Shown here piece after piece: positions 49,741-64,000 of a stretch of DNA of 64,000 nt. The notes below the pieces were generated by a model that was not told the DNA's origin, ran no database searches, and was given only the letters and a program-made list of their open reading frames with translations. How positions within the stretch are numbered: the stretch's first letter is position 1; the number at the start of each line of letters is the position of its first letter. The stretch spans positions 124,001 through 188,000 of the forward strand of contig NZ_BCTZ01000001.1 in NCBI RefSeq assembly GCF_001591025.1. The letters are read 5' to 3'. The DNA is from Sphingomonas soli NBRC 100801 (GTDB lineage: Bacteria > Pseudomonadota > Alphaproteobacteria > Sphingomonadales > Sphingomonadaceae). Both the position numbers and the translations under genes were made by a program.

Positions 49741-50505
49741 CTAGGGTGTTACGGTGATCACCGCGCGACGGCGTGAAGGATCGTCGATTCCGTTCGCGGG
49801 CATCGGGGTTTCGGAGGCCAGGTGCTCGATACGCTCGCGATCCGCGCCGAGATCGACCAGGATTTCAACGATCCGCTCGGCACGGTCCGTTGCGATGGCA
49901 TCGCGTTCGACGATCGTCGTGCCGTCGGAGAGCAGCGACGCGCCGCGTGTGGTTTCAATGCGAATGCGCCCGTTGCTCGCGCGTGCGTAGCGCAACGCTT
50001 CCTCCAGCCGATTGGTGTTGCGCCGCGCCAGGAAGATGCTGTCGAACTCAAATCCGAGCACGAACTGCTTCTCCACAAAGGGAGCCTGCGGTTCGGGGGG
50101 GCGCGGTGCCGGCGCGTGCGGGCGCACCGCCGGGCCCGGCCCGCGTGGAGAGACGGGGGACTCGTACTCCCCGGCCGGAAGGATCGTGCTACAGGACAGG
50201 TCGATCTCGGGCATCACCGAAACGCTCAGATTCTCGAGCGGTACGCCGCCGCAGACGCGCGGGCCTTTGCCCACCGTCGCTTCGATCAGCGCGCGATGCT
50301 TGAGCTGCGGCGAATAGAAGCTCGCCGCGCTGTCTCCCTGCGGGCCCAGATAATAGGTCTCCCCATTCCAATCCGCGAGCCAGCAGGGAAGGTGGGTGTC
50401 GCGCAGCACCGGGCAGGCAACGAAGCTCACACGTTTCGCAGACTGGGCATAAGCGGCCTGCGAAACAGACAGCGCGGCAAGCAACACGGCCCTACCCCAG
50501 CGCAT
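49741..50505 (-). CDS. OmpA-like periplasmic protein
   Basis: This 254-residue secreted protein has a signal peptide ending AYAQS, a Cys-containing N-terminal domain (Cys pairs in VACPVLRDTHLPCW and RVCGG), a Pro-rich linker, and a C-terminal domain with an OmpA/MotB-like outline (FEFDSIFLARRNTNRLEEAL, later RAERIVEILVDLGADRERIE and RRRAVITV). OmpA-like domains bind peptidoglycan. Its ATG overlaps the stop of the cytochrome gene (TGATG), showing translational coupling. Confidence 0.72.
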   Translation of the reverse strand: MRWGRAVLLAALSVSQAAYAQSAKRVSFVACPVLRDTHLPCWLADWNGETYYLGPQGDSAASFYSPQLKHRALIEATVGKGPRVCGGVPLENLSVSVMPEIDLSCSTILPAGEYESPVSPRGPGPAVRPHAPAPRPPEPQAPFVEKQFVLGFEFDSIFLARRNTNRLEEALRYARASNGRIRIETTRGASLLSDGTTIVERDAIATDRAERIVEILVDLGADRERIEHLASETPMPANGIDDPSRRRAVITVTP

Positions 50506-52016
50506 CACAATGCCCCCATGAAATTGGTGAGATCCTCTTTTTCCTGCTCCGTAAGCTTCATTTCGAAGCGGCGATCGTAGAAATCGACGACCGCACGCAG
50601 ATCGCGGGCGGAACCGTTGGCGAAATAGGGCGCGCGTGCCGCAAGTCCGCGCATCTGTTGCAGCGTGATCGCCCCGACATCGACGCACTTGCCGGTGATC
50701 AGCGCGCGGCCCGGATCGGTCGTGTGGATAACCCGGCCGAGATACGGATGCGGCGCTGCCTTGGGCGAACACGTTACCTTGAACAGCGGCAGATCGTCGG
50801 TGCGCTCGGCCCAGGGCAGGGTGTTGGTGCCCAGATCCATCCAGCCGGGAGCGCCATCGATCCCGACATGCTGCATGTTGTGGCACGTGGCGCACGTGCG
50901 CTTGATCGGATTGCCCATGCCGATGATCGTGTTCAGATGCGTCACGTCACGAATGTAGAACGGGCGCATCATGAAGATCTCTTCGCCGCGCGCGACCGAG
51001 GCGCGGAACGCCTTTTCCTGCTTCGTGCCTTCGGGCGATTTCCACGCCTCGAAATAGGGGAAGACGCGCCGCTCGATAAAGTCACCGAGCAGCGGCTTGC
51101 CCTCCAGGATCGACTGCACGCCTGCGGTTGCACCTGCCGCGTCCAACCTGCCGACGCGACGATTTTCCGTCGCCGCCATGTAGAGGCCGCTGGTGAACTC
51201 TTCGATTTGACCCAGTTGCGCCTGAGTCATCTTGCGCGTGGCACCGAGATGGACCGACGCGGCATCCTCTGCCTGGCTCTTCAGGGTAAGCAGCCGTGCG
51301 TCGGACATCAGGTTCATGCTGGTGCGCTTCCCCGAAGCAGCATCGAGCGTGACCGGATAGCCGGTCTTGATATTGAACAGGTTGGGGACTGTCAGAATAT
51401 AGCGGAGGTTGGCGACGGGCCGGGGACGGCGGAAGACCGAGATCGTCGGCGACGCGCTGTTCATCCCATAGGTCTTGTCGAGATTGCATCCCGTCGGGTC
51501 GCGGACGACCTCGATCTTGATCTCCGGCTCGCCCTTGATGCTCTTCGATGGCCAGGGGAGGGGAATCCGGATCAGGCCGCGTTCCAGCAGCAGCGAGTGC
51601 GAACGCGGATCTTCGGGCTTCAGGTTCGCGCAATTGGCACCGTCCGTCATCGCGAACAGCGGATCCTTGCCGCCGGTTGCCGCCCATTGACGCTGCGCGG
51701 TAGCGGCCGACAGGCTCATGCCGTCGGCAGGCTGGTGGCAAGTGACGCATGCCCGGCCATTCTCGCCGAGCGGCTGGAAAAACGGGTGTGTGCCGACGTC
51801 GATGGGCTTCGACGTCCGCAGGATCGATACTACCGAGGTATCGTTGGGATAGGAGAGCAGTTCGGGCCATTCCCGCTGCTCGCCCGGACTCCACCAGCGA
51901 TCCGGCGTGGGCGCGGCCTGCCGGGCGCCGGCGGAGAACAGGGTTCCGCTGAAGACAAATGCCGACCCGAGAAGCAGCAACGCTCCACCGCGGCCTCTCG
52001 GGTCGAACATTCTCAT
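50505..52016 (-). CDS. Di-haem cytochrome c peroxidase-like protein
   Basis: The 503-residue secreted protein has an N-terminal signal anchor and two haem c motifs, CVTCH (Cys90, Cys93, His94) and CATCH (Cys375, Cys378, His379). Size and layout fit the cytochrome c peroxidase/MauG superfamily; it is longer than typical CcpA (about 330 residues). It could reduce peroxide or oxidise an organic substrate in the periplasm. The start overlaps the TonB-receptor stop (TGATG), and its stop overlaps the next start in the same way. An in-frame ATG two codons downstream is also possible. Confidence 0.87.
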   Translation of the reverse strand: MRMFDPRGRGGALLLLGSAFVFSGTLFSAGARQAAPTPDRWWSPGEQREWPELLSYPNDTSVVSILRTSKPIDVGTHPFFQPLGENGRACVTCHQPADGMSLSAATAQRQWAATGGKDPLFAMTDGANCANLKPEDPRSHSLLLERGLIRIPLPWPSKSIKGEPEIKIEVVRDPTGCNLDKTYGMNSASPTISVFRRPRPVANLRYILTVPNLFNIKTGYPVTLDAASGKRTSMNLMSDARLLTLKSQAEDAASVHLGATRKMTQAQLGQIEEFTSGLYMAATENRRVGRLDAAGATAGVQSILEGKPLLGDFIERRVFPYFEAWKSPEGTKQEKAFRASVARGEEIFMMRPFYIRDVTHLNTIIGMGNPIKRTCATCHNMQHVGIDGAPGWMDLGTNTLPWAERTDDLPLFKVTCSPKAAPHPYLGRVIHTTDPGRALITGKCVDVGAITLQQMRGLAARAPYFANGSARDLRAVVDFYDRRFEMKLTEQEKEDLTNFMGAL

Positions 52017-54749: not shown

Positions 54750-56228
54750 TCACGCCCCGGCGGGCAGTTCGTTCATCGGCACCCAGTTGCCGTGGATCGC
54801 GGCGGCCGAACGGATCGGCAGTCGGGCGATCCCGATCGGGCCCTCGTGCAGCTTTTCAGCATCGAGCACCGCGACTTCGGAGCGGCCTTCCTTGAGCAGG
54901 TTGACCACGGAGATCAGATAGCCTTCGCCTTCGCGGGCATCGGCGGATTTGGGGACGAACACCGGCTCCTGCGGCACCACGCCATCGGGCGGCATCCAGC
55001 GCGACACGACCTCGCCGGTCTCGACGTCGATGCGGCCCAGCGCCGCGCGCCACGGCCAGGTGGTCGCGGTCGTCTTGTCGTCGTCGAGCCCGATCTGCGG
55101 CTCGCCGCTTTCCGAATAGACAAAGAAGCCAACGCGGTAGCGCTTGCCTGCCAGACGGTCGTCAATGCGCGGCATCTCGCCAGGTGCGGGATTGATCACG
55201 CGCTCCTGGACTTCGTCCGAACTGCTCGTGAGGTCGCAAGTCCAGCGCGTGAGCGGCGATTTCGCGAGTTCCGGATCGTATGGCTTGCCGTTGATGTCCG
55301 GGAAGAAGGGGAAGGTCTGAATGCGGGCGACGCAGCAGTCCATATGGACCTTGCCGTCCTCGCTATAGGCATTCATCACGTGATACATCCACCGCGCCGG
55401 GCCCTTGAACCAGCGCACGTCCTCCGCGCTGCCATCGCGCGGCATCACGCCCAGATACATTGGTAGCGATCCGTCCCACGCCCAGATCGGGCCGCCGGCC
55501 TTCATGCGATCGAGATCGCCGGTCGTCGGCATCACGGCGAAGATCACATGCTCCTTCGTCACCGCGAAATCATGCATCATGCTGGCGTAGGGCGGCTTGA
55601 GCCAAACTTCCTTGGTCACCACGCCATTCTTGTCGGCAATATAGAAAGCCAGATCGTCGGTGGTTTCGCCGGTGGCGTTCGCGCCGAAGAACAGCAGCTC
55701 GCCCGTGTCCGGATCGATCTTCGGATGCGCGGTCACGGTCTTGCTGGTGACGCGGCCGTCATAGTCCCAGCGGCCGGTGGTTTCGAGCGTGATCGGGTTC
55801 AGCGCGACCGGCAGGCTCTGCTCCTTCAGCGCGAGCAGCTTGCCGCCATGCCAGATGACGTTGGTGTTCGCGGTGCCGCGATCCTTGCCCGCGACGCTGG
55901 GATCATCGGTGAAGGGGTTGCGATATGCACCGAACAGTGCGCGACGGGCTTCGCGCTCCAGCTTGAACTTCTCGGTCCGCACATAGCGAATCTTGTAGTC
56001 CACATAGCCGTTCTGGAAGCGCAGCATGCTGACCATGCCGTCGCCGTTGATATAGATGTCGTCGCCCAGCAGCGGGGGATATTGATGCTCGGGCCCGCAG
56101 CGGAAGAAGCAGCCGTTGAGCGCGGCGGGAATCTCGCCTTCGATTTCCAGATCGTAAATGTCGCACTCGACACGTTGCGGCCGCTGAAAGCCGCTGAAGC
56201 TGAACGTATCCGGAAATGGCTTGGTCAA
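54750..56228 (-). CDS. Carotenoid oxygenase family, lignostilbene dioxygenase-like
   Basis: This 492-residue beta-propeller non-haem iron enzyme has Fe ligands His168 (TAHPKID), His219 (MMHDFAV), His283 (MYHVMNA) and His479 (AIHGNWVP). Tyr102 and Lys135, 33 residues apart, fall where LsdA/NOV1-type lignostilbene dioxygenases have Tyr101 and Lys134, the residues that activate the phenolic substrate. The enzyme thus likely cleaves a hydroxystilbene double bond into two aromatic aldehydes. TTG 56228 is chosen because GGGGAGG lies three bases upstream; the frame open to 56345 is Arg-rich shadow. No signal peptide is seen. Confidence 0.9.
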   Translation of the reverse strand: MTKPFPDTFSFSGFQRPQRVECDIYDLEIEGEIPAALNGCFFRCGPEHQYPPLLGDDIYINGDGMVSMLRFQNGYVDYKIRYVRTEKFKLEREARRALFGAYRNPFTDDPSVAGKDRGTANTNVIWHGGKLLALKEQSLPVALNPITLETTGRWDYDGRVTSKTVTAHPKIDPDTGELLFFGANATGETTDDLAFYIADKNGVVTKEVWLKPPYASMMHDFAVTKEHVIFAVMPTTGDLDRMKAGGPIWAWDGSLPMYLGVMPRDGSAEDVRWFKGPARWMYHVMNAYSEDGKVHMDCCVARIQTFPFFPDINGKPYDPELAKSPLTRWTCDLTSSSDEVQERVINPAPGEMPRIDDRLAGKRYRVGFFVYSESGEPQIGLDDDKTTATTWPWRAALGRIDVETGEVVSRWMPPDGVVPQEPVFVPKSADAREGEGYLISVVNLLKEGRSEVAVLDAEKLHEGPIGIARLPIRSAAAIHGNWVPMNELPAGA

Positions 56229-56443
56229 GCTATCCTCCCCTTGGCGCGCCGCGCGGGGCGACGGGCTCAACACCCCGCGGACGAGCGCCGTTCGCGGGAC
56301 ATTTCGTTTGCAATGCGTCGGCATTTGAGAGCCGATCTGATGCAAATCGCTTTACCGCTATTCGACATAGCAATGCAACACTTTTAATTGCGTTCGATCG
56401 AATCATAGCATAATCGGCCCGTCGATAGATTTGAGGGGGATGG
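56229..56443. promoter_or_regulatory. Divergent promoter region with palindrome
   Basis: The 215-base gap drives the lignostilbene operon to the left and the dehydratase-family operon to the right. Its right half (56340-56425) is AT-rich for this genome. A perfect palindrome TTCGATCGAA lies at 56393-56402 and overlaps GAATCA (56400-56405), the half-site sequence known for E. coli PaaX; a partial match TATTCG is at 56359-56364. Control by the PaaX-like regulator of the same operon is possible, and both sites need testing. Confidence 0.5.
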
Positions 56444-57601
56444 ATGCCGATTGACAGTGTCGCAGCGGCGATGGAGCGGCTGCAGAGTCATTATTCGCTG
56501 CGAATCGATCCGCGCAGCCTGGTGCCGAATGGCGTTATCGGATGTCTTGGATTCGATGTTCCCCGGGAGCTAATTCTGGCATGCGGGCTGCGGCCTGTGC
56601 GGCTGGCGGGAAATCCGGCCCGACCGACGCCGCATACGGACAAGGTGATGGGCGGGATGGGCGATGGCGAGACGCGCTCGCGCATGGAGCATCTGCTCTC
56701 CGGCGAGTTCGGCGCGCTTTCCGGATTGGTCATTAGCCATGACGTAGAGGATCAAGTCAGAATGTTTTATGCGCTGCAGGAGTTGCGGCGTGTAGGGGAC
56801 CCGCTGGCCGCATCCTTGCCGCAGATTCACTTCTTCGACTTGCTGCACATGAAGTACCGCACCACCTGGCTGTACAATCGCGATCGCATCGCGAGGCTGG
56901 CTGATTGGCTGGGCGGGATCGGCACGCCGTTCAGCGACGAATCGCTGGCGCATGCCATTGTCGAGTGCAATCGCAGCAGGACACTGCTTCACCGCTTGCG
57001 CGCGTATCGCGGTCCGGCGGAGACCCGTATCCTGGGCAGCGATGCACTCGCCGCGATCGGGGCGTCGTTCAGCATGCCTCCGGTAGCGTATAACCAGACG
57101 CTGGAGGCCCTTCTTGAGGGACTAGAGACCGCGCCGGCAATTCCCGGGCCGCGCATCTTCATCACCGGAAGCATCAACGACAGCCCGCTCGTCTATGAAA
57201 TGATCGAGCACGCCGAGGGGGTAGTGGTGGGGGAGGACCACGACTGGGGTGACCGGGGCTATGACCGGTTGGTCGGCGAAGGGGAGGAGGATCCGCTGGG
57301 GGCGCTGGTCGATGCGTACCAGTTCGCGCCGCCGGCATCGGCGAAATTCTCCACCGTGGCGCGCGCCGCATATACCGCGAGCCATGCCAAGGCGACGGGC
57401 GCCGAGGCCGTTATCGCAGTGATTCGCCGCAGCGACGACGCCCCCCGCTGGGACATTCCGGCCCAACGCGAGGTGCTGGCGAAGGCCGGCATTCCGCTGC
57501 TGCTCGTCGAAGTGGACGGGTATCACGAGGACCAGCAGCGAGCGGCGCAGCCCGCCATCGCCGAGTTCATCGGACAAATTCGAGCAGGAGGCGCACGATG
57601 A
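56444..57601 (+). CDS. 2-Hydroxyacyl-CoA dehydratase / benzoyl-CoA reductase family, HgdB/BcrC-like, cysteine-poor
   Basis: The 385-residue protein has the HgdB/BcrC outline: GCLGFDVPRELILACGLRPV near residue 33, RIFITGSINDSPLV near residue 237, VVVGEDHDWGDRGYD near residue 260 and KAGIPLLLVEVDGYHEDQQ near the end. The three usual [4Fe-4S] cysteines are not seen: the first region reads GETRSRMEHLL (about residues 75-85), the second ISHD with His99, and the last RRSDDAP (about 328-334). Remaining cysteines (34, 47, 175) lie elsewhere. So the classic radical dehydratase or reductase chemistry is unlikely. ATG 56444 follows GAGGGGG. It overlaps the next gene by four bases (ATGA). Confidence 0.88.
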   Translation: MPIDSVAAAMERLQSHYSLRIDPRSLVPNGVIGCLGFDVPRELILACGLRPVRLAGNPARPTPHTDKVMGGMGDGETRSRMEHLLSGEFGALSGLVISHDVEDQVRMFYALQELRRVGDPLAASLPQIHFFDLLHMKYRTTWLYNRDRIARLADWLGGIGTPFSDESLAHAIVECNRSRTLLHRLRAYRGPAETRILGSDALAAIGASFSMPPVAYNQTLEALLEGLETAPAIPGPRIFITGSINDSPLVYEMIEHAEGVVVGEDHDWGDRGYDRLVGEGEEDPLGALVDAYQFAPPASAKFSTVARAAYTASHAKATGAEAVIAVIRRSDDAPRWDIPAQREVLAKAGIPLLLVEVDGYHEDQQRAAQPAIAEFIGQIRAGGAR

Positions 57602-58896
57602 GCGCGCAGAACACCAGCGCCGCGAACCGCCGCCGCATCAAACTGCCGACCGCAGGCAAAGCCAAGGCCTATCACCGCCAATGGTTCGATTCGCTGCGCG
57701 AACAGGTGGGGGAGGGCGGTCCCTTCGCGCTGGCCAGCATCGAGACGCCGTTCGAAATCCTGCGCGCCATGGATATCCCGTTCGTGCCGATCCAGTGGTG
57801 GTCGTCGATCGTGTCGGTGAAGCAGAAGGCCCCGGAGTATCTCAATCGCCTGCGCGCCGAGGGATATCCCGACGACCGCGCGCAATATTTCGGGCTGGGC
57901 CTGGCTTCGTCTTATGACGAAGATCCCGCGAGCATCCCCTGGGGCGGCTTCCCCAAGCCGACGCTGGTGATGGGCGATCCGCGCGACGACAATCTCGGCA
58001 AAATCTACGAGATCTGGGCACGGCGCTATGGCGCAACCTATTTCGAGCGCGAGATGGCGATCTTCGACCCCGAGCCGCGCGCCTGGTGGGACGAAGGGCA
58101 GCGTGACTGGGAAGGGCTGTATCCGCCCGAGATCGTCGACATTCTGCTGGAGGAATCCAAGGGGCTGATCCGCCACCTGGAGATGACCACGGGCAAGACG
58201 TTCAGCGAGACGCGCTTCCGCCGCGTGCTCGACCTGATCAACGAGCAGGAGGAACATAACCGCCAGGCGCGCGACCTGATCGCGCACTCGGTTCCGGCCC
58301 CGATCAGCGTATCCGACAGCTTCACCAGCGTCATGCTGCCGCAATGGCATCGCGGGACCGAGTGGGCGCGTGACGCAGCAGCCGAATTCCACAACGAGAT
58401 CCGCACTCGCATCGATGATGGCGAGGCGGTGTGCCCGGACGAAGAAATCCGGCTCGGCTGGATCGGCGCCGGCCTGTGGTTCAACGTCGATTTCTACGAC
58501 GCGTTCATCGATCGCTACAAAGCGGTGTTCGTCTGGTCGATGTATCTGGGGCTGGCCGCCGACGGGTACGCGAAATATGGCAGCGATCCGCTGCGGACGC
58601 TCTCTGCCCGCTATGCCGCGTTCAACCAGCATCTGACGATGGAGCCCTGGGGCTCGTCATGGCTGGTCAAGGAAGCGCGGCACAACCAGCTCGACGCGAT
58701 GATCGGCCTGGGCAGCGGCAATTATTTCGTGGAGCGCGCCTTCCGGGATGCGGGCATCCCGATCCTGTTCATACCCGCCCACAACGTGGACAACCGCAAG
58801 TGGGATGGCGAACGGATGCTCGATTATGTGAGCGCCTTTATCGAGAATGAAGTCCGGCCGCGTGCAGAGGCGCGCCGTGCAAGCATGAAGGGTTGA
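57598..58896 (+). CDS. 2-Hydroxyacyl-CoA dehydratase / benzoyl-CoA reductase family, HgdA/BcrB-like, cysteine-poor
   Basis: The 432-residue protein has the HgdA/BcrB outline: TPFEILRAMDIPFVPIQWW near residue 50, LNRLRAEGYPDDRAQY near residue 83, KIYEIWARRYGATYF near residue 135 and AGIPILFIPAHNVDNRKWD near residue 390. Only one cysteine (Cys279) is present. Where the family binds [4Fe-4S], this protein has DRAQY (Ala95), PRDDN and LGSGNYF. It is the size-matched partner of the preceding gene, so the two probably form a heterodimer. No ATPase activator (HgdC/BcrD type) is in the window. The reaction is unknown. Confidence 0.87.
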   Translation: MSAQNTSAANRRRIKLPTAGKAKAYHRQWFDSLREQVGEGGPFALASIETPFEILRAMDIPFVPIQWWSSIVSVKQKAPEYLNRLRAEGYPDDRAQYFGLGLASSYDEDPASIPWGGFPKPTLVMGDPRDDNLGKIYEIWARRYGATYFEREMAIFDPEPRAWWDEGQRDWEGLYPPEIVDILLEESKGLIRHLEMTTGKTFSETRFRRVLDLINEQEEHNRQARDLIAHSVPAPISVSDSFTSVMLPQWHRGTEWARDAAAEFHNEIRTRIDDGEAVCPDEEIRLGWIGAGLWFNVDFYDAFIDRYKAVFVWSMYLGLAADGYAKYGSDPLRTLSARYAAFNQHLTMEPWGSSWLVKEARHNQLDAMIGLGSGNYFVERAFRDAGIPILFIPAHNVDNRKWDGERMLDYVSAFIENEVRPRAEARRASMKG

Positions 58897-58901
58897 GTGA
58901 A

Positions 58902-60107
58902 GTGACGATCAAGCCGCTCAGCGGGATCAAGGTTCTCGATTGCACGCAGGTGTTCGCGGGTCCGTTCGCGACGTACCAATTGGCACTGCTGGGTGCGGAG
59001 ATCATCAAGGTCGAACCGATCGGCCGGGGCGATACCCTGCGCGGCTATTACCACGGGAGCGGCGCGGGCAATCAGATGAGCGGCTCCTTCGTAGCGATCA
59101 ATTCGGGCAAGCGCTCGATCGCGCTCGACATCAAATCGGAAGAGGGCAAGCGCATCTTCCGCGCGCTGGTGGCGGCAAGCGACGTGCTGGTCGAGAATTT
59201 CCGGTCCGGCGTGATGGAGCGGCTGGGCTTTGGCTGGGACGATTGCCGCAGCATCAACCCGAAGCTGATCTATGCAAGCCTGTCAGGCTATGGCGCGACG
59301 GGGCCGAACGCTTCGCATCCGGCGCTCGATCATATCATCCAGGCCGCTTCGGGCATGATGTCGCTCAACGGGCAGGCCGATGCCGATCCGGTGAAGGTGG
59401 GCTTCCCGGTGATCGACAGCTTTGCGGGCTATGTCGCTGCGTTCGGCGTGATGGCGGCGCTGCTGCAGCGTGGCCATACCGGCGAAGGGCAGCGCGTGGA
59501 CGTTGGCATGCTCGACGTCGCGATGGTGCTGATGACATCGATGGTGGTGCCGTACCACAACGCGGGCACCGAACCCCCACGGCTGGGCAATCGCGGCTAT
59601 AGCGGCAGCCCGACCTCAGACCTGTTCCGCACCGGAGATGGAAATATCTCGATCGGTGCGAACGGGCCGGGGCATTTCGAGAAATTGTGCGACGCTATCG
59701 GCGCATCGCACATTTATGGCGATCCGCGCTTCGCGACGCCGGCCGCGCGGATCGAGAACACCCCTGCGCTCCGTGCCGAGATCGAAAGCGCGCTTGCCGC
59801 CCGCAGCGCGGAAGAATGGGAGCCGGTGATCGCCGCGGCCGGGGTGCCGGCAGCGAAGCTCCGCACGGTATCCGAAGCGCTCGGCAACCCGCAGCTCAAG
59901 AGTCGCAGCCTGGTCCAGACCGTGCCGCTGGCGGCGGGCAAGGCCGACCCGGTGACCGTGCTGAACCTGGGCTTCGAGGCAAGCTGGGAGAGTGGGGCGA
60001 AGGAGCCTTCGCCGCTGCTGGGCGAGCATAGCGACGCGATCCTCGAGTCGCTTGGCTACGACGCTTCGGCAATTGCGCAATTGCGTACGCTTGGCGTAAT
60101 CGGTTGA
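58902..60107 (+). CDS. Class III CoA transferase (CaiB/BaiF family)
   Basis: The 401-residue enzyme has the family N-terminal LSGIKVLDCTQVFAGPF, SGKRSIALDIKS, and the catalytic Asp in HPALDHIIQAASG (Asp143). Such enzymes form an aspartyl-CoA thioester and move CoA between carboxylic acids. GTG 58902 is preferred because GAAGGG lies nine bases upstream; a TTG at 58893 overlapping the previous stop would add three residues. Placed after the two dehydratase-family genes, it likely activates their substrate or recycles CoA from the product, as in hydroxyacyl-CoA dehydratase pathways. Confidence 0.93.
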   Translation: MTIKPLSGIKVLDCTQVFAGPFATYQLALLGAEIIKVEPIGRGDTLRGYYHGSGAGNQMSGSFVAINSGKRSIALDIKSEEGKRIFRALVAASDVLVENFRSGVMERLGFGWDDCRSINPKLIYASLSGYGATGPNASHPALDHIIQAASGMMSLNGQADADPVKVGFPVIDSFAGYVAAFGVMAALLQRGHTGEGQRVDVGMLDVAMVLMTSMVVPYHNAGTEPPRLGNRGYSGSPTSDLFRTGDGNISIGANGPGHFEKLCDAIGASHIYGDPRFATPAARIENTPALRAEIESALAARSAEEWEPVIAAAGVPAAKLRTVSEALGNPQLKSRSLVQTVPLAAGKADPVTVLNLGFEASWESGAKEPSPLLGEHSDAILESLGYDASAIAQLRTLGVIG

Positions 60108-60144: not shown

Positions 60145-61104
60145 ATGCCATCGATCGACATGCCGCGCCCACAGACGGGAAGTCAGCCGCAACGGCTGAT
60201 CATGACGCTGCTCAGCCATTACTGGGATGATTCGGAAGAATTCATCCCGCCGGCTGCGATCATCAGGCTGTTGGAAGATTTCGATATCACCGCGCTGAGC
60301 ACGCGCGCGGCATTACGGCGGCTGGTGCAGCGGGGCGCGCTGGAAAACGCGCCGTCCGGGCGGCGGCGCGGGGTGCGGCTGCCCGAGCATTACAAGAAAA
60401 GCATGGCAAGGACCCGTGAGCGGCTGCGGCTGCTGGGCCCGGGCGCGCCCCCTTGGGACGGGCTGTGGACGGTGGCGATGTTCTCGCTGCCCGAGGCTGA
60501 TCGCGACGTTCGCCATGCCGCGAAGTCGCGGCTTCAGTGGATCGGCCTGGCGCCCCTGTTCGACGGATTCTGGGTCACGTCGCTCGACCTGGCCGACGCA
60601 GTGAAGGGGATATTCGAGGATCTGGGCATCACCGAATTCCTGGTGATGCGCGCGAGCGCGATCCCGGGGGGACGGCAACCGGCCAGTGCATGGAATTTCG
60701 ACGACGCGCGCAACAATTACCTGCGCTTCATCGACCAGTTCGCGCCGCTGCGCGAGCGGGTCCGCTCGGGATCGGTAGGCGCGCAGGAAGCGCTGCTGGA
60801 GCGCACCAACCTGATGAACGAATGGCGCATCGTGCGGCATTCCGACCCGTTGCTTCCGGCCGAATTGCTTCCGGCCGACTGGCCCCGCAACGAAGCGCTG
60901 GCCCTACTCGAAGAGCTTCACGATTCGCTGGCTCCGCTGGCGATCATCCGTTTCCGCCAGGTGCTGGAGGAAACGGCGGCCGATCTGGTGCAGCAGGCGA
61001 CGTTCCGCACCTTCCGCTCTAATCCTGCCGGGAAGGCTGATCCGGCAGATCGTAAAGCGCCACAGTCGAGCGAAACGGTGCGCGTGCGAAGCCGAGCAAG
61101 GTAA
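60145..61104 (+). CDS. PaaX-like transcriptional regulator
   Basis: The 319-residue protein has the PaaX layout: an N-terminal winged helix (LIMTLLSHYW then STRAALRRLVQRGALE, about residues 18-70), a central ferredoxin-like domain (WDGLWTVAMFSLPEADRDVR near residue 109) and a C-terminal domain with LLPAELLPADWPRNEAL. PaaX represses phenylacetate genes and responds to phenylacetyl-CoA; relatives sense other aryl-CoA esters. It follows the CoA transferase by 37 bases, so it probably controls this operon. Its 3' end overlaps the MFS gene tail-to-tail by 86 bases. Confidence 0.9.
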   Translation: MPSIDMPRPQTGSQPQRLIMTLLSHYWDDSEEFIPPAAIIRLLEDFDITALSTRAALRRLVQRGALENAPSGRRRGVRLPEHYKKSMARTRERLRLLGPGAPPWDGLWTVAMFSLPEADRDVRHAAKSRLQWIGLAPLFDGFWVTSLDLADAVKGIFEDLGITEFLVMRASAIPGGRQPASAWNFDDARNNYLRFIDQFAPLRERVRSGSVGAQEALLERTNLMNEWRIVRHSDPLLPAELLPADWPRNEALALLEELHDSLAPLAIIRFRQVLEETAADLVQQATFRTFRSNPAGKADPADRKAPQSSETVRVRSRAR

Positions 61105-62387: not shown

Positions 62388-64000
62388 TCAGTCGAAGCTG
62401 GTGAATTGGGTACGACGGATCAGTTCTTCCTGCACGTGCGGTTCGAGCATCGTGAAATAGACGCTGCACCCGCCGACGCGGACCAGGAGCTCCTTATAGG
62501 CTTCCGGATCGGCCTGGGCCGCGCGCATCACCGCATTGTCGATGACGTTGATCTGCAGATGCTTGCCGCCCGCGCGGAAATAATCGCGGATCATCTTCGA
62601 TCCGGCAGCAAGCCCTTCCTCGCTGTCCATCATCGACGGATGGAGCTTCACGTCCAGCGACGTTGCCTGATAGGCCGACTGATCGATCTTCGCGGCGCTG
62701 CGCAGCATGGCCGAGAGCCCGGAGCGATCGAATTCGCGCATCGGCGTCATCGATTCATCGGCCAGGCACTCGCCGGCGCGGCGGCCGTCCGGCGTGGCAC
62801 CTACCTGCGCGCCGCCGGGCCATTGCGCGGTGCCGATCGAGATCGCCCCGGGGATGCACTTGCCACCATAGGTGGTGCCCAGTTCGGCGGCGCGCTCTGC
62901 CCAGAAGCGATAGATCGAGACGGCCTGCTCATCGGCATAATCGTCGTCATTGCCATATTTGGGAGCGGCGAGCGCGAGCTGGTGAATTTCCTGGCCGCGC
63001 GGGCCGGCCCAGTCGCTGTTCAACGCCTCGAGCAGCTCCCCGGCGGTGACGACCTTATCGTCGAACACGAGCTTGCGGATCGCGGTGAGCGAATCCGCGA
63101 CGTTGATCATGCCGATCGGATTGAGAACGTTGCCGTTCTCGAAGGGCAGGGTGCGGTTCAGGATATCACGATCGGCCTGGAGTCCGCCTTCCATCAGCGC
63201 GGATTCGAACGGCTGGGGATAGGTTTCGGCGAAGGCGCGCATCGTGATGTTGTTGAACTCGGCCTGCAGGCCGATGAAATGCGCGAGCTGTGTATCGAAT
63301 GCGGCGCGGAATTCCTCCCACGTCTTGAAATCGGTGAACTTGCCGGTCTTCGGACCCGCCTGCTTGCCGGTGCGCGTGTCGAAACCGTCGTTCAGCGCGA
63401 ACTGGAGCACCAGCGGGGCGACGAACATCGGATGGGCGACGCTGCGCGACTTGCCCGGCACGTTGATCGCCAGACAGCCGGCGACCGCATAGTTGCGCGC
63501 ATCCTCGATGCTGACGTCGTGCTGCTGGAGGAAGCCGATGCACGATTCGTCGCTGAGGAAGGCGGGGAGGCCGGTGCCGGCCTGGATCAGCTCCAGCGCC
63601 TTGCGCATCAGCGGCTCGGGGGTGCCCTCATGCACGCGCATCGTGAGCGTGTGGTGCGGAACGGGGCAATCGCGGATCGCTTCGAGCACCAGGTAGCTCA
63701 GCTCGTTGGTGGCGTCGCTGCCGTCGGCGTTCTGGCCGCCGATCACGCAGTTATGCCACTTGGCCATGCCGCCATATTTGTTGCGATGGGTCTGCGGGGT
63801 GGCCGCGACCATCTGCATATCCTTAATGCGCAGCCATTCGAAGATCTCGACGACTTCCTCGTCGGTGATCCGCCCGGCATCGCGATCGGCGCGGTAATAG
63901 GGGTAGAGCGTCTGATCTATCCGGCCGAGCGACAGGATGCCTGAAGGCAGGACGAGCAGCAGCAGGAACCAGAGCGACTGGACCGCTTCGCGGAAGGTGC
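62388..64000 (-). CDS. Glycyl radical enzyme (pyruvate formate-lyase family), 5' end beyond window
   Basis: The frame is open to base 64000, so at least 537 C-terminal residues are visible and the start is missing. The PFL-family core is clear: SLGRIDQTLYPYYRADRDAG, GATPDGRRAGECLADESM, LQINVIDNAVMRAAQADP. The thiyl-radical cysteine is in VAGCLAINVPGKS (codon 63474-63476). The radical glycine is in LLVRVGGCSVYF (codon 62469-62471). Dehydratase and lyase members have Glu two residues after the cysteine and Tyr after the radical glycine; here they are Ala and Cys. The reaction is unknown. Such enzymes are oxygen-sensitive and need a radical-SAM activase, which is not in view. Confidence 0.9.
   Translation of the reverse strand, partial: TFREAVQSLWFLLLLVLPSGILSLGRIDQTLYPYYRADRDAGRITDEEVVEIFEWLRIKDMQMVAATPQTHRNKYGGMAKWHNCVIGGQNADGSDATNELSYLVLEAIRDCPVPHHTLTMRVHEGTPEPLMRKALELIQAGTGLPAFLSDESCIGFLQQHDVSIEDARNYAVAGCLAINVPGKSRSVAHPMFVAPLVLQFALNDGFDTRTGKQAGPKTGKFTDFKTWEEFRAAFDTQLAHFIGLQAEFNNITMRAFAETYPQPFESALMEGGLQADRDILNRTLPFENGNVLNPIGMINVADSLTAIRKLVFDDKVVTAGELLEALNSDWAGPRGQEIHQLALAAPKYGNDDDYADEQAVSIYRFWAERAAELGTTYGGKCIPGAISIGTAQWPGGAQVGATPDGRRAGECLADESMTPMREFDRSGLSAMLRSAAKIDQSAYQATSLDVKLHPSMMDSEEGLAAGSKMIRDYFRAGGKHLQINVIDNAVMRAAQADPEAYKELLVRVGGCSVYFTMLEPHVQEELIRRTQFTSFD

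Follow-up and report, generated by a model that had tools for sequence, protein, structure and literature searches.

Two overlapping genes of Sphingomonas soli NBRC 100801 encode a pair of HGD-D proteins that, on balance, appears to be an activator-independent, non-redox enzyme acting on a coenzyme A (CoA) ester from the adjacent CoA-transferase. The genes lie at positions 56444 to 58896 of a 64,000-nucleotide stretch of DNA, the whole of which is called the window here (contig NZ_BCTZ01000001.1, positions 124,001 to 188,000). Enzymes of the 2-hydroxyacyl-CoA dehydratase / benzoyl-CoA reductase (HAD/BCR) group are textbook examples of a chemistry that depends on iron-sulfur clusters and on electrons driven by ATP. 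The window pair would be an alpha/beta heterodimer of HAD/BCR descent from which the ATP-driven ketyl-radical chemistry has been dropped. The lack of cluster ligands, of the catalytic acid/base pair and of an activator argues against ketyl chemistry, and a near-constant CoA-transferase together with conserved thioester tyrosines points to a CoA-ester substrate. Relatives in many bacteria suggest that ancestral radical machinery was remodelled for a different task. As we define it, an activator-independent HGD-D family has a beta-alpha pair whose locus includes a type III CoA-transferase but gives no match to an activator, and the window pair fits this definition.

Fold and subunit identity

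The first open reading frame (ORF1; 56444..57601, plus strand) encodes a beta-type HGD-D subunit of 385 amino acids, and the second (ORF2; 57598..58896, plus strand) encodes an alpha-type, substrate-binding subunit of 432 amino acids. Both match the Pfam family HGD-D (PF06050) well over its gathering cut-off of 28.4 bits (ORF1, 131.7 bits, E 6.3e-38; ORF2, 105.4 bits, E 6e-30). AlphaFold2 (AF2) models reached mean predicted local distance difference test scores of 92.5 for ORF1 and 88.1 for ORF2. These predicted models were compared with known structures by VIA-align, plus Foldseek. ORF1 matched BzdN (8s02_B) at a VIA Z of 42.5 (root-mean-square deviation 2.3, 366 residues aligned), and ORF2 matched HadB (3o3m_C) at 38.2 (2.4, 385 aligned). 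Comparisons with the wrong subunit were weaker, at Z 30.0 for ORF1 against the best BzdO/HadB-type chain and 30.4 for ORF2 against the best HadC-type chain. Each predicted fold thus agrees most closely with one subunit type, beta for ORF1 and alpha for ORF2. The scores bear out the original prediction, made from the sequence alone, that the pair retains the HGD-D fold.

At the sequence level, relatives of the pair in the PDB are BzdN, HadC, MbdO, BzdO, HadB and DCCP. BzdN is nearest to the beta subunit (E 4.9e-13) and MbdO to the alpha subunit (E 7.7e-14). Among the curated NCBIfam subfamilies (HadB, HadC, BzdN, BzdO, BcrC and double-cubane), the pair fell under every cut-off that it touched. 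Its best scores were 65.7 bits for beta, where the cut-off is 350, and 31.9 bits for alpha, where it is 448.6.

Cluster, catalytic and thioester positions

The reference set of functional residues comes from BzdNO, as given in PMC11971306. That paper lists BzdN Cys36, Cys73, Cys100, Cys263, Cys293 and Cys327 and BzdO Cys95, Cys128 and Cys380 as cluster ligands. In the BzdO active site, Glu65 and His131 form the acid/base pair, Tyr97 and Tyr298 hold the thioester oxygen, and Gln274 makes a third thioester contact. These columns were carried onto the pair through HMMER alignments and judged by eye; gap placement decides the match of BzdN Cys293 to beta Ala298 and the mapping of the third alpha site. 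The alignments held 106 alpha and 89 beta rows with the window included, or 97 and 88 after the removal of nine canonical HGD-D loci (L024-L031, L041). Rows are kin and unthinned, so the counts given below are not independent events.

Cysteine occupies none of the nine BzdNO cluster columns in the window pair. ORF1 contains three cysteines (34, 47 and 175) and ORF2 one (279). None lies on a cluster column; C34 stands two residues ahead of the BzdN Cys36 column. Alpha C279 is a conserved cysteine away from the cluster columns, present in 69 of 106 alpha rows. The idea that any of the four cysteines present serves as a cluster ligand was rejected on this alignment, a case that the original prediction had named as one that would count against it. 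That prediction had also read ISHD and DRAQY where cluster cysteines were expected and had counted a single cysteine in the 432-residue second protein; both readings are correct. As a positive control, the HGD-D pair of Rhizobium leguminosarum, which stands beside annotated activases, has cysteine at beta columns 74, 101 and 331.

On the beta subunit, five of the six BzdN cluster columns hold cysteine in no family row. Gly36 (56549..56551; this and all residues below are on the plus strand) occupies the Cys36 column, with cysteine in 0 of the 81 rows that have a residue there. Asp74 (56663..56665) falls on the Cys73 column, site 1, which is Asp in 67 and Cys in 0 of 81 rows. Asp267 (57242..57244) stands at the Cys263 column (Cys 0/86, Asp 57/86), Ala298 (57335..57337) at the gap-dependent Cys293 column (Cys 0/85), and Asp331 (57434..57436) at the Cys327 column, site 3 (Asp 79, Glu 3 and Cys 0 of 83). 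The exception is the Cys100 column, site 2, where cysteine is found in 58 of 82 family rows and the window has Val101 (56744..56746). Replacement residues are conserved rather than random (Asp or Glu in 82 of 83 rows at site 3, besides the aspartates of site 1), and Trp336 is invariant (83/83).

The alpha subunit combines lost ligands and lost catalytic residues with a retained thioester grip. Ala95 (57880..57882) lies on the BzdO Cys95 column, site 1, where the 97 family rows read Glu 71, Cys 18, Asp 4, Pro 2, Ala 1 and Arg 1. Asp130 (57985..57987) lies on the Cys128 column, site 2, with Gly 64, Cys 18, Ser 10, Thr 4 and Asp 1 of 97. The segment that carries the third cluster cysteine, BzdO Cys380, is deleted at residues 373-374 (58714..58719). 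The Glu65 column holds Gln66 (57793..57795) and reads Gln 95, Thr 1 and Ala 1, with Glu in 0/97, and the His131 column holds Leu133 (57994..57996), with His likewise in 0/97. Both thioester tyrosines are present in all 97 rows, as Tyr97 (57886..57888) on the BzdO Tyr97 column and Tyr316 (58543..58545) on the Tyr298 column. A low cysteine count alone means little; as judged from the aligned sequences, loss at nine defined positions that is common to relatives exceeds chance.

Family distribution and order of losses

An alpha match was found in 21 of the 296 genomes of the order, and 12 of the 21 were strong (E<1e-80). A scan of GTDB contigs confirmed 385 related stretches, which rules out that the pair is unique to the S. 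soli genome. The 80 loci kept for analysis come mainly from Actinomycetes, with Chloroflexi, deltaproteobacteria, clostridia and sphingomonads. The closest aligned relatives reach 44% identity for beta and 52% for alpha. All of the 80 alpha loci except L089 yielded a beta row, which in five of the 79 is fused to alpha. Natural beta-alpha fusions (contig C17 of the same genome, L013, L097, L100 and L109-L111) are as expected for a dimer. The fusion in S. soli itself is a second clusterless HGD-D protein of 780 amino acids (L009 7897-10239, minus strand; G000 C17). Its gene belongs to a row that also encodes a TRAP transporter and several CoA-transferases of type III.

Family members differ in their alpha cysteines. 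All three are present in six rows, from Chloroflexi (L043), deltaproteobacteria (L053, L089) and clostridia (L096, L107, L119). Twelve rows of Novosphingobium/Croceicoccus type keep two of three, and 79 have neither of the first two. The twelve (L014-L022, L037-L039) carry extra cysteines (CKYC, TCDC) beside their two cluster cysteines and none at the third site, and so look intermediate. Site stretches of alpha genes from genomes of the source's own family match those of Novosphingobium/Croceicoccus plasmids, one of them identically. The six three-cysteine alphas already lack the Glu/His of BzdO type, and the five beta proteins found with them have cysteine at none of the six BzdN cluster columns.

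A quick maximum-likelihood tree of 53 alpha rows, which carries long-branch warnings that include the window branch, requires at least two changes between cysteine and no-cysteine states. The no-cysteine groups are a single clade that unites the window, Actinomycetes and the fused sphingomonad forms (97% support, sister to L043), and L040 with L023. Change counts in the tree cannot by themselves separate gain from loss; the changes are read as loss because the outgroup has cysteine. Loss on the beta side is taken to be older because the five betas beside three-cysteine alphas have no cluster-column cysteine. Sequence comparison thus suggests that the beta ligands and the alpha Glu/His were lost first and the alpha cysteines later, at least twice. 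The change of chemistry seems to have preceded the move to air. The original prediction had proposed a branch that dropped ketyl-radical chemistry, perhaps to work in air. Its first part holds up, given the loss of cluster cysteines, of the Glu65/His131 equivalents and of the activator in a conserved family that kept its tyrosines. Its picture of one branch shedding everything for air needs refinement, because clostridial and deltaproteobacterial three-cysteine members already lack the beta ligands and the alpha Glu/His.

Activator search

No activator gene lies beside the window pair, in agreement with what had been noted from the sequence, and no homologue of the HGD-D activator (query from an R. 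leguminosarum plasmid) was detected in any of the 80 related loci. The host genome, a draft of 3.5 Mb in 35 contigs (G000; completeness 100, a gap being possible), contains a single PF01869 match, of 112.7 bits, on contig C25. This protein looks like a sugar kinase, and its neighbours presumably form an amino-sugar cluster. It was rejected as the pair's activator on account of these neighbours and of a score well below the best of activator-bearing genomes.

The wider pattern is similar. Among the order's 12 genomes with a strong alpha match, nine gave no PF01869 hit at E<=0.001, and the other three (S. soli, G213 and G179) reach 97-113 bits at best. Best scores in three actinomycete genomes with the pair were 83.6 (L056), 20.5 (L058) and 91.8 bits (L060). 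The range is 200-278 bits in G010 and in the genomes of L053, L089, L096, L107 and L119. In Youngiibacter (L119), the contig of the pair carries the nearest activator at a distance of about 17 kb, but this activator stands beside an HGD-D pair and a CoA-transferase of its own, the latter read by eye. That canonical-looking activator/HGD-D/CoA-transferase run (L163 5490-9937; G296 C53) places both kinds in one organism.

Genomic neighbourhood

In the window, ORF2 is followed by a type III (CaiB/BaiF) CoA-transferase gene with a TTG start (58893..60107, plus strand; Pfam CoA_transf_3, E 5.8e-118). Four-base overlaps join ORF1 to ORF2 and ORF2 to this gene. A PaaX-like transcriptional regulator (60145..61104, plus strand; Pfam PaaX, PaaX_M and PaaX_C) starts 37 bases past the CoA-transferase gene.

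Neighbours were counted by comparing query proteins with all ORFs of at least 150 amino acids in the 80 loci, some of which are short. Homologues of the CoA-transferase occur in 79 loci, of CapA/PGA_cap in 68 and of the PaaX-like regulator in 55. Less frequent are a CocE-type hydrolase (19), MmgE/PrpD (6), a glycyl radical enzyme (3) and its activase (2). Transporters vary with lineage, namely an amino-acid ABC binding protein (50/80), TRAP (8/80) and CitMHS (3/80), and so point to no one substrate.

The CapA family is usually tied to poly-gamma-glutamate capsules. Here it recurs beside a CoA-ester gene set, for example at L096 12536-13672. The single CapA gene of S. soli lies on the fused-pair contig C17, not beside the window pair. 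In Clostridium sp. chh4-2, a 362-amino-acid protein with no Pfam match at E 1e-5 (L107 13909-14997, plus strand) has a citrate-type transporter on one side and two CapA genes on the other.

Upstream, a lignostilbene-dioxygenase-like gene (54750-56345, minus strand; 604 bits against a family cut-off of 800) diverges from ORF1. It is probably a local addition, because none of the 80 related loci has a homologue. A crude scan of the gap between this gene and ORF1 found no exact palindrome of at least 6 bases. An MFS transporter and a glycyl radical enzyme homologue that runs past the window end lie further downstream of the PaaX-like gene. Two CxxCH-bearing proteins, with sub-threshold matches to di-haem peroxidases only, flank the cluster (50505-52016, minus strand; L008 5605-7197, minus strand). 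The ORF that comes after each of them matches OmpA below the threshold (13.2 and 24.6 against 27.2 bits).

Proposed function and alternatives

In the scheme that we favour, the adjacent type III CoA-transferase would make a CoA ester, which the alpha subunit would bind with its thioester carbonyl held by Tyr97 and Tyr316. The pair may then carry out a non-redox step next to the thioester, with neither electron input nor activator. Acid-base elimination, addition or a lyase reaction is our best guess for this step. Any role of beta Asp74, Asp331 and His266, at or near old cluster columns, is inferred only. A CoA ester of the pathway is probably the signal to which the PaaX-like repressor responds. 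E. coli PaaX responds to phenylacetyl-CoA, and the recurrence of a PaaX-like regulator fits a CoA-ester pathway.

Several points weigh against this proposal. A cluster may form in part of the family, given the six three-cysteine alphas and the twelve two-cysteine rows. Beta still keeps one cysteine, at site 2, in 58 rows. The five alpha-cysteine genomes tested do hold activator genes, and an activator may act in trans on such members. Shared descent among the rows lowers the weight of their counts, and the neighbour counts stand without a random-locus control. The branch of the window alpha is long (1.08), and its sequence deviates from the consensus of the family at A95 (consensus E), D130 (consensus G) and I48 (consensus A). 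At the column of BzdO Gln274, the third thioester contact, it has Ala291. The substrate, product and activity of the pair are putative.

The alternative that survives best, although we regard it as unlikely, is that the old cluster sites now bind another metal. Asp74, Asp331 and the Glu264-Asp265-His266-Asp267 segment of beta (with Cys101 in most relatives) would hold a divalent Lewis-acid metal. In three-cysteine relatives the alpha cluster may act similarly. Aconitase uses its cluster in such a Lewis-acid manner. This alternative is partly compatible with the non-redox enzyme proposed above. Conservation on or near the old ligand columns favours such a site, with His266 in 83/87 family rows, Glu264 in 78/86 and Asp265 in 77/86 beside the acidic residues at positions 267 and 331. 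So does the retention of three cysteines in six alphas that lack Glu/His, five of them with a beta free of cysteine at the six cluster columns. On the other hand, the spatial proximity of these residues is putative, site 2 is valine in the window, and the acidic residues may instead serve structure or protonation.

It is also quite improbable that the pair is a non-catalytic CoA-ester binder, which would sequester or present the CoA-transferase product or tune PaaX or the transferase. Catalytic residues are gone while the thioester tyrosines are retained, and coupling to the CoA-transferase and PaaX is tight. Yet alpha E53, W67, W250, R252, W294 and R338 (and G253) are invariant in 97/97 rows, more than mere binding would seem to require, and beta accompanies alpha in all but one locus.

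Decay from a former HAD/BCR enzyme would fit the long window branch and the lost key residues, but it is very improbable and was rejected given the identity to relatives, the family-invariant residues, the intact and overlapping ORFs, the confident fold models and the second, fused pair in the same genome. Just as improbable is an iron-sulfur enzyme whose cluster is held by non-cysteine ligands, which exist in general (PMC11574389), or by a partner, as no cluster column has cysteine, the third alpha site is deleted, the acid/base residues are lost, no activator adjoins the pair and the genome's one PF01869 match is sugar-kinase-like.

A parallel in glycyl radical enzymes

The glycyl radical enzyme (GRE) homologue downstream of the pair has a counterpart nearby. 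GRE1 occupies window positions 62388-64000 on the minus strand and continues to C1:188805 (C1:186388-188805; L008 2389-4806), and GRE2 lies on the plus strand at C1:191384-193870 (L008 7385-9871). The two are 56% identical. Relatives occur in HGD-D-pair loci L053 (48% identical to GRE1), L096 (43%) and L119 (42%), and the pair's locus in Youngiibacter (L119) and Geosporobacter (L096) contains a GRE together with its activase. The link is not strict, because genomes G010 and G017 have two tandem GREs each (48-49%) and no alpha match.

These seven comparison GREs share the radical loop R[VI]AGYSAYF and an Asp two residues past the catalytic Cys (GC.D). The window GREs have RVGGCSVYF and RIGGCSAYF as loops and GCLA and GCLG at the catalytic Cys, so no acid follows two residues later. 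A loop scan of 17 loci gave no loop match in eight with more distant enzymes. No GRE activase emerged from the S. soli genome, where the best TIGR02494 score was 21.7 bits against a cut-off of 174.35 and the L119 activase query reached E 0.042 at best. Ten other genomes of the order bear GREs; in all seven that were tested, a TIGR02494 match stood beside the GRE, over the cut-off in four.

These features suggest that the GREs lost radical chemistry, in parallel with the HGD-D pair; the loss is only suggested because the catalytic Cys and the radical Gly remain. It is possible, if rather doubtful, that two unrelated anaerobic radical enzyme classes in one presumably aerobic sphingomonad locus were both made radical-free and shed their activators. 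A whole oxygen-sensitive module would then have been rebuilt for air, its folds kept while acid-base or metal chemistry took the place of radical chemistry.

Significance and relation to known systems

A widespread sister family in which the clusters are gone but the fold and the hold on the thioester persist would show that the HAD/BCR scaffold has another job. Mixed forms, in which alpha has cysteines and beta does not, suggest stepwise retirement of a radical enzyme. Literature searches of open-licence PubMed Central papers brought up no entry whose title or abstract opening describes a clusterless HGD-D pair. Three annotated plasmid homologues carry the name 2-hydroxyacyl-CoA dehydratase. 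Caution towards such automatic naming is advisable, as the named reaction finds no support in the Glu/His columns of the clade to which they belong. The recurrent CoA-transferase / CapA / PaaX neighbourhood makes finding the substrate practical.

Among known systems, the double-cubane cluster protein DCCP (6eno, 7yyl) shares the HGD-D fold, and no NCBIfam entry scores higher against beta than its family, NF040772. The beta subunit scores far below that cut-off and has cysteine at none of the six BzdN-type columns. The plasmalogen synthase PlsA/PlsR is, like the window pair, a member of the HAD family. According to PMC12838417, recombinant E. coli cultured under air supports the activity of the Lactococcus cremoris enzyme; unlike in the window pair, conserved cysteines are reported and a [4Fe-4S] cluster is inferred.

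The nearest sequence relatives in the PDB belong to BzdNO (8s02, class I benzoyl-CoA reductase) and MbdON (9g87, 3-methylbenzoyl-CoA reductase), with which the pair has the thioester tyrosines in common. It differs from them in lacking all nine BzdNO cluster cysteines, Glu65, His131 and the ATPase subunits. HadBC (PDB 3o3m), the (R)-2-hydroxyisocaproyl-CoA dehydratase, works with the CoA-transferase HadA and the activator HadI, in the HadA/FldA gene layout. The window pair departs from HadBC in having no cluster-column cysteine in either subunit, glutamine at the catalytic Glu column and no activator gene beside it. Both folds, the alpha/beta split, the size pair and the adjacent type III CoA-transferase are shared by the two systems.

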